Assembly (NCBI GenBank): GCA_029226205.1
Contig: JAQXXT010000079.1
Span: forward strand, 22,325 to 86,324
Source of the DNA: Prevotellaceae bacterium
GTDB lineage: Bacteria; Bacteroidota; Bacteroidia; Bacteroidales; Bacteroidaceae
Reading direction: 5' to 3'
Length of the DNA: 64,000 bases
Part shown: piece after piece, positions 51,071 through 56,843 of the stretch
Layout: each line of letters begins with the position of its first letter
How positions within the stretch are numbered: position 1 is the stretch's first letter
Position numbers and translations under genes: made by a program
Notes under the pieces: model-generated
Told to the model about the DNA's origin: nothing
Database searches by the model: none
Seen by the model: the letters and a program-made list of their open reading frames with translations, nothing else

Positions 51071-53902
51071 ATGGAATATATAGAAGTTAAAGGGGCACGG
51101 GTGAACAACCTGAAGAATATCTCGGTGAAGATTCCACGGGATCAGTTCATCGTTGTCACCGGTGTCTCGGGATCGGGAAAGAGTTCACTGGCTTTCGACA
51201 CGTTGTATGCTGAAGGACAGCGCCGATATGTCGAGTCGCTGTCGGCTTATGCACGTCAGTTCCTCGGCCGAATGAGTAAGCCCGAATGTGACTTTATCAA
51301 AGGACTTCCGCCGGCTATCGCCATCGAACAGAAAGTCGTGGCCCGCAACCCGCGGTCTACCGTTGGCACATCAACGGAGATCTACGAATATCTCCGTCTC
51401 CTCTATGCCCGTATCGGCAAGACGTTCAGTCCCATCAGCGGTGAAGAAGTGAAGCGCCACAGTCCCGAGGATGTTATCAAGTGTGTGAGCCAGTTTGGTG
51501 AGGGTACGAAATTCGTTGTCCTCTCCCCTCTTCATATCATTGAGGGTCGTACACTCGGCAAGCAGCTGGAGATGTATATGCAGGAAGGCTATGCCCGTAT
51601 TTATGCCGGTGGTGACTTCATCCGTATTGACGACTATCTCGAGGCCCATCCCGATGCAGATGGAGATGCCTCTGACATCTGGCTTGTCATTGACCGTATG
51701 AGCGTATCGTCGGAGAAGAGCGAGATCTCCCGTCTTACCGATTCCTGTGAGACGGCTTTCTATGAAGGAGACGGCGCTCTGCGTGTGATGGTTCTACCTT
51801 CGCGTCAGGTCTTTGACTTCTCCACGCGTTTCGAAGCCGACGGCATAACTTTCGAAGAGCCAAACGATAATATGTTCTCGTTCAACTCTCCCCTTGGCGC
51901 CTGTCCTACCTGTGAGGGCTTCGGCAGCATCATCGGTATCGATGAGAAACTCGTTATTCCCAACAGCACCCTCTCTGTCTATGACGGTTGCGTACAGTGC
52001 TGGCATGGTGAGAAGATGAGCCAGTGGCAGACGGAGTTTGTCCGTCGGGCGCAAAAGGATAACTTCCCGATCTTTAAGCCTTATTTTCAGTTGTCTAAAG
52101 AAGAGAAAGATGAGCTGTGGCACGGCCTGCCCTCGGAGCGTAACAAGGAACTCCATGAGCGTGTGTGTATCGACACGTTCTTTCAGATGGTGAAAGAGAA
52201 TCAGTATAAGATACAATATCGTGTCATGCTCAGCCGTTATCGTGGAAAGACGGTTTGTCCCGACTGTCACGGAACAAGACTGAAGAAAGAGGCCAACTAC
52301 GTGAAGGTCGGCGGACGTAGTATCACCGAACTTGTAGAGATGCCGATCCGTGATCTTGAACAGTGGTTCCTCCATCTCGAGCTCGACGCCCATGACGCAG
52401 AAGTTGCCAAGCGCCTTCTAACGGAGATCCGCAACCGTCTTCACTTCCTCGTGGAAGTCGGCGTGGGCTATCTGACGCTGAACCGTCGCAGTAACACGCT
52501 GTCGGGTGGTGAGAGCCAGCGTATCAACTTGACGACATCGCTAGGATCAAGTCTCGTCGGTAGCCTTTATATTCTCGACGAGCCGAGTATCGGTCTGCAC
52601 AGCCGTGACACCGACCGTCTGATCCATGTGCTGCGGGAGTTGCAGGCCCTCGGCAATACGGTACTTGTCGTCGAACATGATGAGGAGATCATGCGGGCTG
52701 CCGATTATATCCTCGATATCGGTCCTGATGCCGGCCGTCTCGGTGGCGAAGTCGTATTTCAGGGATCGTTGAAAGTTCCCGAAGGCCGTACGGCGAAGGA
52801 CTATTATGAGGAACTGCGAAAGAAGAATCCACGGAGCTATACACTCCGTTACCTCACAGGGGAAGAGCAGATCGCTGTCCCCGCCTCCCGTCGCCAGTGG
52901 AACGAGCGTATCATCCTCAAAGGTTGCAGGATGAATAACCTCCGGGGTATTGACGCTACCTTCCCGCTTCATGTCCTCACTGTCGTCACGGGTGTCTCCG
53001 GCTCCGGAAAGAGTTCCCTCGTTAAAGGCATTCTCTATCCTGCCCTGAAACGCCACCTTGATGAGGTCTGTGATGCTCCCGGTGAGTATCTTGGATTGGA
53101 AGGCGACTGGCAGAGCATACATCATGTGGAGTTTGTCGATCAGAATCCTATCGGCAAATCCACACGCTCCAATCCTGCCACCTATGTCAAGGCTTACGAT
53201 GCTATTCGTCAGCTCTTTGCCGATCAGCCGTTGGCAAAACAGATGGGTTTCACGGCCCAGTATTTCAGTTTCAACGCTGAAGGCGGCCGTTGTGAGGAGT
53301 GTAAAGGTGCCGGTGTTATCACTGTGGAGATGCAGTTCATGGCTGATCTCGTCCTTGAATGTGATGCCTGTCACGGCCAGCGCTTTAAGAAAGACATCCT
53401 TGAGGTGCGTTTCCACGACAAGAATATCAACGACGTGTTGAATATGACGGTCTCCGAGGCTATCGCCTTCTTTGATGAGTATGGTGAGAAGACTATCGTC
53501 AAACGTTTGCAGCCTCTGGAGGATGTCGGACTGGGCTATATCAAGTTAGGACAGAACTCCTCGACACTCTCCGGCGGTGAGAACCAGCGTGTGAAACTCG
53601 CATATTTCATCGGTCAGGAACAGGCACAGCCTACCCTTTTCATCTTCGATGAGCCTACGACGGGTCTCCACTTCCATGATATCCAGCGGTTGCTGAAAGC
53701 CTTTGACGCACTGATCGACCGCGGCCATAGCATCATTGTTATTGAGCATAATCTCGATGTCATCAAATGCGCCGACTATGTTCTTGACCTTGGTCCCGAT
53801 GGTGGCGACCGTGGCGGTGAACTTGTTGTCAGTGGCACTCCTGAAGAGGTGGCTGCCTGTGAGAAGAGTATCACGGGGAAATTTTTAAAGGATAAGTTAT
53901 AA
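51071..53902 (+). CDS. uvrA: Excinuclease ABC subunit A
   Basis: GVSGSGKSSLAFDTLYAEGQRRYVESLSAYARQFLG; second Walker A TGVSGSGKSSLVKGIL; zinc-finger CPxCxxG motifs. Confidence 0.98.
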   Translation: MEYIEVKGARVNNLKNISVKIPRDQFIVVTGVSGSGKSSLAFDTLYAEGQRRYVESLSAYARQFLGRMSKPECDFIKGLPPAIAIEQKVVARNPRSTVGTSTEIYEYLRLLYARIGKTFSPISGEEVKRHSPEDVIKCVSQFGEGTKFVVLSPLHIIEGRTLGKQLEMYMQEGYARIYAGGDFIRIDDYLEAHPDADGDASDIWLVIDRMSVSSEKSEISRLTDSCETAFYEGDGALRVMVLPSRQVFDFSTRFEADGITFEEPNDNMFSFNSPLGACPTCEGFGSIIGIDEKLVIPNSTLSVYDGCVQCWHGEKMSQWQTEFVRRAQKDNFPIFKPYFQLSKEEKDELWHGLPSERNKELHERVCIDTFFQMVKENQYKIQYRVMLSRYRGKTVCPDCHGTRLKKEANYVKVGGRSITELVEMPIRDLEQWFLHLELDAHDAEVAKRLLTEIRNRLHFLVEVGVGYLTLNRRSNTLSGGESQRINLTTSLGSSLVGSLYILDEPSIGLHSRDTDRLIHVLRELQALGNTVLVVEHDEEIMRAADYILDIGPDAGRLGGEVVFQGSLKVPEGRTAKDYYEELRKKNPRSYTLRYLTGEEQIAVPASRRQWNERIILKGCRMNNLRGIDATFPLHVLTVVTGVSGSGKSSLVKGILYPALKRHLDEVCDAPGEYLGLEGDWQSIHHVEFVDQNPIGKSTRSNPATYVKAYDAIRQLFADQPLAKQMGFTAQYFSFNAEGGRCEECKGAGVITVEMQFMADLVLECDACHGQRFKKDILEVRFHDKNINDVLNMTVSEAIAFFDEYGEKTIVKRLQPLEDVGLGYIKLGQNSSTLSGGENQRVKLAYFIGQEQAQPTLFIFDEPTTGLHFHDIQRLLKAFDALIDRGHSIIVIEHNLDVIKCADYVLDLGPDGGDRGGELVVSGTPEEVAACEKSITGKFLKDKL

Positions 53903-53905
53903 ATC

Positions 53906-55411
53906 ATGAAATTGAAATTCTCATTGGAATATAAGACGGCATGGGGACAGAGTCTGCATGTCATGGTCACCTATTTCAGTCGTGACGGTCATCGCCGTCG
54001 TACGGAACTGGCCATGGACACGCGTGACGGCAATCTGTGGACGCTGGAGACGGCAGCCATGGAGAGCTATCGCCATCCAGCCGCTTATATCACCTATTAT
54101 TATATAGTCGTAGATGGCAGTGGAAAGATGTTGAGACGAGAATGGCTCGGTGATCCTCGCCTCTATCCTTTCGATATTCATCAGGACTTTCTCTTCCCTG
54201 ACTACTGGCGCGACGCCCCACTCGATGTCCGTTTCCGCCAGCCTACAGGACCGGCTCTCGATGAGAAAGAACAAGAACAGCATGAGCAGCAGGTCATCAA
54301 CAACTACCTTCACAAGGCAGAACTGCAAGCCCGTAAGTTGTCCTGCGTGCTCTATAATCAGACCATCCTCTTCACCGTCAAAGCCCCCGACCTCCATGAA
54401 GGTGAGGAAGTAGCCATTATTGGTAATCATCCCACGCTCGGCTCTTGGCTTCCTGAGCGCTATCTGAGTATGAAACATGTTGATGATGATTTGTGGATGC
54501 TGAGTGTCAATGTCACGGGTGTCGACTATCCCCTGGAATATAAATATGTGGTCATTGACCGTGAGACCCGTCTGCTGAAACTCTGGGAGGAAGGAGCAAA
54601 CCGCAGAGTCCATGTGCCGCGTGTCTATCCCGAGAATGTCATTATTGAGGATGGAGACTGCCTGCGTGTCAAAGATCCCGCGAAGATCGGTGTATTCACC
54701 CTGGAGACGACGGCCCCGGAATATCTGTTGTGGCATCTTCCTTTCGGCACACGTATCAAAGGCTTTGAATGGCGGAGAGATTACGAAACTTATGTCTTTG
54801 ACCTCGACGGTACGCTCATCAGTAGTCTTGAGGATCTCTGTGGCTCATGCAACTATGCGTTGAAGACATTCGGCTTGCCGCAGCATAGTCTCGAAGAGGT
54901 ACGTATGATGGTCGGCAACGGTGTGAAGAAACTCATGGAGCGCGCTACTCCCGATGGTCTCGATAATCCTAAGTTTGACGAGGTCTACGCGACATTCCGC
55001 AAACATTATATGTCGCATAACCGCGACCATACGGCGCCCTATCCCGGTATTATGGATATGCTCCGTCGTCTGCGTGCCGCCGGAAAACACGTCGCTGTAG
55101 TGAGCAATAAATTCTACGCTGCCACGCAGGCCCTGTGCAAGGATTTCTTTGGGCCGTTGGTGGAAGTGGCTATCGGCGAGCGGGAGAATATCCGAAAGAA
55201 ACCGGCACCGGACACTGTCGTCGAGGCCTTGCGGCAGCTCGGCGTGGGCCGTGACCGTGCGGTATATATCGGTGACAGCGATGTCGACATCATGACTGCC
55301 CGCAACAGTGGCATGCCATGTATCAGTGTTCTTTGGGGCTTCCGTGACCGTGCCTTCCTCGTTCGTCATGGTGCCCGTACTTTTGTCAGCAAACCAGAAG
55401 AAATTTTTTAA
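53906..55411 (+). CDS. Tandem CBM20-type domains fused to a HAD (phosphoglycolate phosphatase-like) domain
   Basis: N-terminus FSLEYKTAWGQSLHVMV...ILFTVKAPDLHEGEEVAIIGNHPTLGSWLPERYLSMKHVDDDLWMLSVNV; C-terminus YVFDLDGTLISSLEDLCGSCNYALKTFG...VAVVSNKF...RKKPAPDTV...YIGDSDVDIMTARNSGM. Confidence 0.88.
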   Translation: MKLKFSLEYKTAWGQSLHVMVTYFSRDGHRRRTELAMDTRDGNLWTLETAAMESYRHPAAYITYYYIVVDGSGKMLRREWLGDPRLYPFDIHQDFLFPDYWRDAPLDVRFRQPTGPALDEKEQEQHEQQVINNYLHKAELQARKLSCVLYNQTILFTVKAPDLHEGEEVAIIGNHPTLGSWLPERYLSMKHVDDDLWMLSVNVTGVDYPLEYKYVVIDRETRLLKLWEEGANRRVHVPRVYPENVIIEDGDCLRVKDPAKIGVFTLETTAPEYLLWHLPFGTRIKGFEWRRDYETYVFDLDGTLISSLEDLCGSCNYALKTFGLPQHSLEEVRMMVGNGVKKLMERATPDGLDNPKFDEVYATFRKHYMSHNRDHTAPYPGIMDMLRRLRAAGKHVAVVSNKFYAATQALCKDFFGPLVEVAIGERENIRKKPAPDTVVEALRQLGVGRDRAVYIGDSDVDIMTARNSGMPCISVLWGFRDRAFLVRHGARTFVSKPEEIF

Positions 55412-55412
55412 A

Positions 55413-56843
55413 ATGAAAATAAACGTTCTGCTCTTCACTTTTCTCCTCGTTCTCTGCTCCTGTGCAGAGGATGACTCGTTCTCGATATCTACGGGCGACC
55501 GTCTGACGTTCTCCACGGATACCGTCAGCATGGATACCGTCTTTTCTACGGTCCCTACACGTACGCAGACCTTCTGGGTCTACAACCATACGGGTGACAA
55601 CCTCCGTTGTTCGTCTGTACGTCAGGAACAAGGCAGTACGACGGGCTTCCGCGTGAATGTCGATGGTACTTATCTCTCCTCGTCATCCAACTATCAGACG
55701 CAGAATGTCGAGATCCGTAAGGGTGACAGTCTCCGCGTGTATGTAGAACTGACGTCGAAGACGATGAATGCCACTGATCCCAAGAAGATTGAGGACAACC
55801 TCGTCTTCACCCTTGAGAACGGTACGCAACAGAAAGTGAATCTCAACGCCTTCTGTTGGGATGCCGAGCTCCATCGCAACTGGGTCATCAGTAAAAACAC
55901 AACGATAACGGCCGATAAGCCCGTCGTTATCTATGGTGGCCTGAAGGTTGACTCCGCAGCGACTCTTACGCTGGCTGCCGGCGCTCATCTCTATTTCCAT
56001 GGTGACGCTGCCATGACCGTCTACGGCCGGGTGAAGAGTGAGGGAACGGCAGAGAAGAATGTCGTATTGCGCGGTGACCGCCTGGATAATATGTTCGACT
56101 ATCTCCCCTATGACCTCACGGCAGGACAATGGGAAGGTCTGCACCTCATGCCGTCATCCTATGGCAACAGTTTATCCTATACAGACCTTCACAGCCCTTA
56201 TGATGGTATTGTTTGCGACTCGTCATCAGTAGAACAAACGAAGCTCGCCGTCGATCATAGTACGATCCATAACTGTCAGGGCAGTGGCATCAAGGCTGTT
56301 TCCGCGAAGATCACCGTAGAAAATACGGAGATCTCCAATGTCCTTGATCACTGTGTCGATATCACTGGCGGTTCTCTGACGATGAATCAGTGTACGCTGG
56401 CCCAGTTCTATCCCTTCAGTCTCCGTGGTACGGCCCTTCAGCTGACCGCTATCCGCCAGCCGTTGACCTCCATGGTACGCAACTCCATCGTCACGGGATA
56501 TGCCGATGATGAGATCAGCATTGCCTATGAGGACACGACGGTGGCAAAGGTTGACTTCCGTTTCGACCACTGCCTTCTGCGCACGCCGCGCTTCACGACA
56601 GCCGACAGCCTCCGCATGACGAACATCATCTATGAGGACGTGAAGGATACGACGATCTATGGGGAGAAGAATTTCATACTTTTCGATACCGATAAGCTCA
56701 GATACAATTTCGCGTTGAAAGCCACGAGTGCCGCCATCGGAAAGGCTGATCCCGCTACTGCTCTTCCCTATGACCGTAATGGCCTGAAGCGTGACGACGA
56801 ACCGGATATGGGCTGTTATGAGTTCAATGTTACCAACAAATGA
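55413..56843 (+). CDS. Right-handed parallel beta-helix repeat lipoprotein
   Basis: Lipobox VLCSCAEDD; IHNCQGSGIKAVSAKITVENTEISNVLDHCVDITGGSLTMNQCTLAQF. Confidence 0.85.
   Translation: MKINVLLFTFLLVLCSCAEDDSFSISTGDRLTFSTDTVSMDTVFSTVPTRTQTFWVYNHTGDNLRCSSVRQEQGSTTGFRVNVDGTYLSSSSNYQTQNVEIRKGDSLRVYVELTSKTMNATDPKKIEDNLVFTLENGTQQKVNLNAFCWDAELHRNWVISKNTTITADKPVVIYGGLKVDSAATLTLAAGAHLYFHGDAAMTVYGRVKSEGTAEKNVVLRGDRLDNMFDYLPYDLTAGQWEGLHLMPSSYGNSLSYTDLHSPYDGIVCDSSSVEQTKLAVDHSTIHNCQGSGIKAVSAKITVENTEISNVLDHCVDITGGSLTMNQCTLAQFYPFSLRGTALQLTAIRQPLTSMVRNSIVTGYADDEISIAYEDTTVAKVDFRFDHCLLRTPRFTTADSLRMTNIIYEDVKDTTIYGEKNFILFDTDKLRYNFALKATSAAIGKADPATALPYDRNGLKRDDEPDMGCYEFNVTNK

Follow-up and report, generated by a model that had tools for sequence, protein, structure and literature searches.

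A tandem CBM20-HAD phosphatase fusion in Prevotella, probably derived from a glucanotransferase-phosphatase gene pair

The window, that is the whole 64,000-nucleotide stretch analysed here (contig JAQXXT010000079.1 of a Prevotellaceae bacterium, genome G000 in our sample), carries a gene whose single open frame joins two CBM20-fold modules to a HAD phosphatase domain. The relevant features, all on the forward strand, are the following, with the basis of each assignment in brackets.

51071..53902, + strand: uvrA, the upstream neighbour (list of open reading frames; order as in Prevotella sp. AGR2160)
53906..55411, + strand: CBM20-CBM20-HAD fusion gene, 501 aa (open frame, Pfam, match in Prevotella sp. 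AGR2160, dN/dS)
53906..54214, + strand: CBM-A (aa 1-103), of CBM20 fold and without a Pfam match (AlphaFold2 pLDDT 92 and Foldseek)
54242..54349, + strand: insert between the modules (aa 113-148), with a predicted helix at aa 120-144 (alignment, model)
54350..54655, + strand: CBM20-B (aa 149-250), with predicted glucan-site residues W181, K213, W227, E228 and N232 (Pfam, alignment with 1ac0 and STBD1, conservation)
54656..54778, + strand: linker (aa 251-291), mostly of low confidence, marking the site of GH77 loss (pLDDT; alignment with full malQ2 and other fusions)
54779..55411, + strand: HAD class-IA phosphatase domain (aa 292-501), stop codon at 55409-55411 (Pfam HAD_2, structure match to 2hi0, motifs)
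55413..56843, + strand: putative lipoprotein, the downstream neighbour (sequence, open frame; order as in Prevotella sp. AGR2160)

Only 3 nt separate the stop codon of uvrA from the ATG of the fusion gene, and the start codon of the lipoprotein gene lies immediately 3' of the fusion's stop. The second module is readily recognized by Pfam (CBM_20, PF00686, at aa 153-239; E 2e-15, 56.8 bits against a cut-off of 23.3). The first ~103-110 residues gave no significant match in the Pfam search and no meaningful match to the PDB by sequence, and the assignment of CBM-A thus rests on its fold. Its AlphaFold2 model is a beta-sandwich (pLDDT 92) whose top PDB matches in Foldseek are CBM20 starch-binding domains (6fhv, 2vn4, 1b90, 1cqy and 2z0b), so the term tandem CBM20 holds. 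The preliminary description had assigned the N-terminal ~280 residues to such a tandem. This was right as to two CBM20-fold domains, one above the profile cut-off and the other matched by fold and not by profile, but the pair ends near residue 250. The motif APEYLLWHLPFG (aa 270-282), which had been given as its end, falls in the weakly ordered linker (pLDDT ~55-75 over aa 251-290 in the AlphaFold2 model). Among the aligned relatives, the insert between the modules is longest in the window and in Prevotella sp. AGR2160.

In alignments, the five predicted glucan-site residues of CBM20-B coincide with the glucan-binding site of the Aspergillus glucoamylase starch-binding domain (1ac0) and match STBD1. 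They include two Trp, a Lys and an Asn (W181, K213, W227 and N232), which we take to be the equivalents of the binding-site-1 residues of the glucoamylase domain. Across 82 distinct sequences all five are kept without exception, whether the gene is fused, gutted or reduced to the CBM pair (forms described below), and glucan binding is therefore most likely the conserved thing. Judging from these residues, the CBM20 pair most likely binds glycogen or long maltodextrins.

The C-terminal part matches Pfam HAD_2 at aa 297-475 (E 2.8e-35) and has all four HAD catalytic motifs: D299/D301 (DLDGT), S400, K432 and D457/D461 (GDSDVD, from residue 456). These motifs, an inserted cap, and scores above the cut-offs of the NCBIfam models TIGR01549 and TIGR01509 place it in class IA. 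The phosphoglycolate phosphatase equivalog TIGR01449, though the nearest NCBIfam family, is not reached (126.4 bits against a cut-off of 180). The top match by both sequence and structure is 2hi0 (E 2.2e-43; in Foldseek, 36% identity and a TM-score by target of 0.82). The preliminary description of a complete phosphoglycolate-phosphatase-like HAD domain was therefore accurate. Pfam searches of the window protein found neither a GH77 domain with its Asp/Glu/Asp triad nor a dual-specificity (Cys-based) phosphatase domain. The AlphaFold2 model of the whole protein (mean pLDDT 92.3, pTM 0.58) has well-formed domains whose relative placement is uncertain. Orthologues of the HAD domain that lack a CBM altogether are common in Prevotella; they also occur in Lachnospiraceae. 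Four of them, in records labelled Roseburia (L064, L066, L067 and L069), are ~55% identical, which is close for another phylum; a gene transfer between the two groups or a binning error might explain this.

The presence of both parts in one protein, as first described, is real, since it is shared by an independent assembly and by other genomes. Prevotella sp. AGR2160 (L033), which was sequenced separately, has a 501-aa fusion of identical layout, 87% identical and with matching neighbours. Fusions of the same layout were found in Segatella copri iA622, Prevotella cerevisiae DSM 100619 and three further genomes, and one fusion-bearing genome (G044) is a single contig. The frame is open in all seven fusions. 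Between the window and Prevotella sp. AGR2160, dN/dS (NG86) is 0.08 in CBM-A, 0.08 in CBM20-B, 0.07 in the HAD domain and 0.02 in uvrA, at dS of ~0.8-1.0, and the linkers are more variable than the domains. Ratios near 0.08 at a dS near 0.8 mean that the CBMs are not decaying. The possibility of a pseudogene under decay was rejected on dN/dS for the fusion, as well as for the gutted and CBM-only genes discussed below.

The fusion is rare. Of the 398 genomes sampled from the genus, 4 have it (G000, which is the window's own, G041, G044 and G240), and across 344 genomes of the order it occurs in none apart from the window's own. It is also present in the named records L033, L034 and L035, some of which may be of the same species as the sampled genomes. 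On the HAD tree the AU test rejects one common origin of all seven fusions (p 0.012). Once the divergent G240 is left out, such an origin is no longer rejected (p 0.165; p 0.46 on uvrA), and we therefore claim no more than that there were probably two origins or more. The fusions fall together on the CBM tree, a grouping made unreliable by long branches.

Where did the CBM20 pair come from? The canonical malQ is intact elsewhere in the genome (a 901-aa frame with Pfam matches to CBM20 and GH77), which answers a check proposed in the preliminary description. We rejected this gene as the source because the CBM pair of the fusion is only 28% identical to that of the genome's own canonical MalQ, against 45-50% for its best matches in a second glucanotransferase gene of layout CBM20-CBM20-GH77, here named malQ2. 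Genes whose CBM part is nearer to that of the fusion than canonical malQ is, fusions and shortened forms included, occur in 184 of the 398 genus genomes. Where the neighbourhood could be read, the usual order is mltG (reverse), malQ2, HAD, and a LytTR regulator (reverse). The HAD gene lies on the same strand and at most 300 nt downstream in 27 of the 30 full-length malQ2 with enough downstream sequence, a count biased upward by the many loci that were fetched by their HAD gene. Among coupled pairs, the TGA of malQ2 often overlaps the ATG of the HAD gene (ATGA). The fusion is likely to have replaced an ancestral pair of coupled malQ2 and HAD genes. In the window's genome the fusion has left the ancestral locus: it now follows uvrA, and mltG, found on a different contig, lacks a HAD neighbour.

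The mltG-malQ2-HAD locus is found in five states: full malQ2 with HAD, gutted malQ2, a gene for the CBM pair only followed by HAD, HAD alone, and the fusion. Gutted genes occur at L062 and L193-L195, at L132, L191, L192 and L217, and at L189 (genome G086), where the HAD gene is on another contig; L190 was left out of this count, as a contig end seems to truncate it. CBM-pair-only genes with a separate HAD gene occur at L133 and L219, and fusions at L034, L035, L113, L114 and, on a short contig, L205. Once rows shortened by locus ends are excluded, the Asp/Glu/Asp triad is kept in all full-length malQ2 except L130 and is absent from all gutted genes. In gutted and CBM-only genes the CBM part has a dN/dS of 0.06-0.08, and the GH77 remnants 0.17. 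Several lineages have therefore lost glucanotransferase activity and kept the glucan-binding pair. The comparison of these sequences indicates that GH77 is repeatedly lost at this locus, in what reads as a staged domain swap whose binding modules outlive the catalytic domain.

Individual loci add some detail. The exception L130 (5097-7703) encodes a full-length malQ2 in which the GH77 Glu is replaced by Asp (AEDL to ADDH). The form found at L062 (3208-5000) and L193-L195 has 610-643 aa and a degenerate GH77, with Asn in place of the catalytic Asp (QINH/RINH) and without the third acid; the dN/dS of 0.17 in the remnants suggests that it is probably a maintained pseudoenzyme. L132, L191, L192 and L217 share a similar internal deletion that leaves mainly the C-terminal part of GH77 (from probe residue 442/453 onward), and they cluster on the CBM tree. 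At L135 (5502-7683) a CBM/GH77 fragment and the HAD gene lie tail to tail, by local inversion or assembly error. The linker of the G240 fusion holds an apparent piece of the first GH77 segment (LVNWAQEQGLRVVLMP), which fits deletion of the rest of the domain. In HAD-only genomes the spacer between mltG and HAD showed no convincing CBM remnants.

The preliminary description had wavered between a rearrangement that removed GH77 and a glycogen-targeted phosphatase. The relatives bear out the former, with the paralogue malQ2 adjoining the HAD gene as the source. The two alternatives are not exclusive and each seems partly right: GH77 was apparently removed, and the product appears to be conserved as a phosphatase with glucan-binding modules. 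The genome encodes a glycogen branching enzyme, a glucan phosphorylase and malQ, found by individual searches, and glycogen metabolism is therefore likely present; in L034, L113 and L114, glgB lies ~3 kb from the fusion. We thus favour, with moderate confidence, an origin by GH77 loss between the malQ2 CBM20 pair and the coupled HAD gene, yielding a cytoplasmic phosphatase tethered to glycogen or maltodextrin by its CBM20s. The loss, as the relatives suggest, would have turned the CBM20 pair and the tightly coupled gene behind it into a true fusion. Its product would be a cytoplasmic enzyme that the CBM20 pair holds on glycogen or long maltodextrins, and the flexible linker would let the HAD domain dephosphorylate its substrate at or near the glucan surface. 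The fusion may thereby fix a co-localisation that other Prevotella could reach with two coupled genes. Given an intact HAD domain, a flexible linker and the predicted glucan binding, a phosphatase held on glycogen is the simplest model, and the maintenance of both halves by selection suggests one parked on stored glycogen. Against this model, the conserved residue W80 of CBM-A is lost in the S. copri-type and G240 fusions, and the fusion gene is co-directional with uvrA and not with glycogen genes. Two further points weigh against it: the CBM-free orthologues of Prevotella and Lachnospiraceae, which imply that the HAD reaction can do without glucan and make a small sugar phosphate a better candidate substrate than the polymer, and the likeness of the HAD domain to enzymes of phosphoglycolate phosphatase type, whose cap usually admits small molecules and excludes polymers. 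Small sugar phosphates from glycogen turnover would then be the most likely candidates, and phosphate monoesters on the glucan less likely ones.

Removal of phosphate esters from glycogen itself would make the protein a bacterial glucan phosphatase, the functional equivalent of laforin on an unrelated catalytic fold. A CBM20 joined to a phosphatase is the layout of laforin, whose CBM20 recruits it to glycogen (PMC13011383); the CBM of STBD1, a glycogen-binding protein, aligns with CBM20-B; and the CBM pair remained under selection after the loss of GH77. Yet we regard this as distinctly unlikely, given the usual exclusion of polymers by the cap, the wide occurrence of CBM-free orthologues, and the fact that glycogen phosphorylation in organisms without laforin, bacteria included, is described as an open question (PMC13011383). 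It is also conceivable, if doubtful, that one chain carries two independent functions, the CBM20 pair being a glucan-binding factor (a scaffold or chain-end cap), the HAD domain a housekeeping metabolite phosphatase, and the fusion a by-product of gene coupling. The CBM-pair-only genes beside separate HAD genes, which are under purifying selection, fit this view, as do the gutted malQ2 of G086 with its HAD gene on another contig and the common HAD-only genomes. However, probably at least two origins of the fusion and the frequent coupling of malQ2 with HAD suggest some benefit from linkage.

Two further explanations discount the CBM part or the gene itself. The many relatives with HAD alone at the locus might indicate that the modules are useless baggage in a gene being reduced to HAD alone, but this is very improbable: it is contradicted by the selection test on both CBMs, by the binding-site residues kept in all fusions and by the seven open frames. 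The window comes from a draft genome of 124 contigs, in which a malQ fragment might have been wrongly joined to a HAD gene. Such a misassembly, which the preliminary description had raised as a caveat, is ruled out for practical purposes by Prevotella sp. AGR2160, whose independent assembly has this fusion between these neighbours, and by the fusions of S. copri iA622, P. cerevisiae DSM 100619 and the one-contig genome.

Our results bear on the evolution of this locus, where full, gutted, split and fused forms, all in living relatives, mark the stages of a domain swap. They also hint, through guilt by fusion, at what a widespread, uncharacterised HAD phosphatase may do in Prevotella. We found no report of a CBM20-HAD architecture in the open-licence literature, which is not proof of absence. 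Laforin was called "the only known glycogen phosphatase" in a 2025 paper (PMC12834914), and a bacterial CBM20-phosphatase makes the question of glycogen phosphorylation without laforin directly testable. A broader proposal, which we put forward tentatively and think rather unlikely, is that of a HAD-based bacterial counterpart of laforin, a CBM20-held phosphatase that would control glycogen phosphate or local sugar-phosphate pools and would have arisen repeatedly in Prevotella out of paired glucanotransferase and phosphatase genes.

Several known proteins resemble the fusion in part. With tandem-CBM20 GH77 4-alpha-glucanotransferases (Bacteroidetes MalQ and the plant DPE2 type) it shares a homologous CBM20 pair, but the fusion has HAD in place of GH77 and is not a GH77 enzyme. 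The top match of its catalytic domain, 2hi0, is a HAD-IA protein of Lactobacillus delbrueckii annotated only as a putative phosphoglycolate phosphatase; unlike the fusion, it is single-domain and has no CBM. Human GPCPD1, whose CBM20 (2z0b) is among the structure matches of CBM-A, combines CBM20 with a glycerophosphodiester phosphodiesterase, and is comparable in having a CBM20 on an enzyme that acts on a small phospho-compound; it is an animal protein with a single CBM20 and an unrelated catalytic domain. The nearest analogue in layout is laforin (CBM20 and a dual-specificity phosphatase), grouped with the plant glucan phosphatases SEX4 and LSF2. The CBM20 of laforin is N-terminal. Laforin unites an alpha-glucan-binding module, CBM20, and a phosphatase in one cytoplasmic protein, and the fusion, also with CBM20, is predicted to do so. 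The likeness is one of layout: the fusion is bacterial and has two CBM20s instead of one, and its catalytic domain is HAD class IA, not the Cys-based dual-specificity phosphatase of laforin, SEX4 and LSF2. As the catalytic domains are unrelated, the fusion is not a member of the laforin family.
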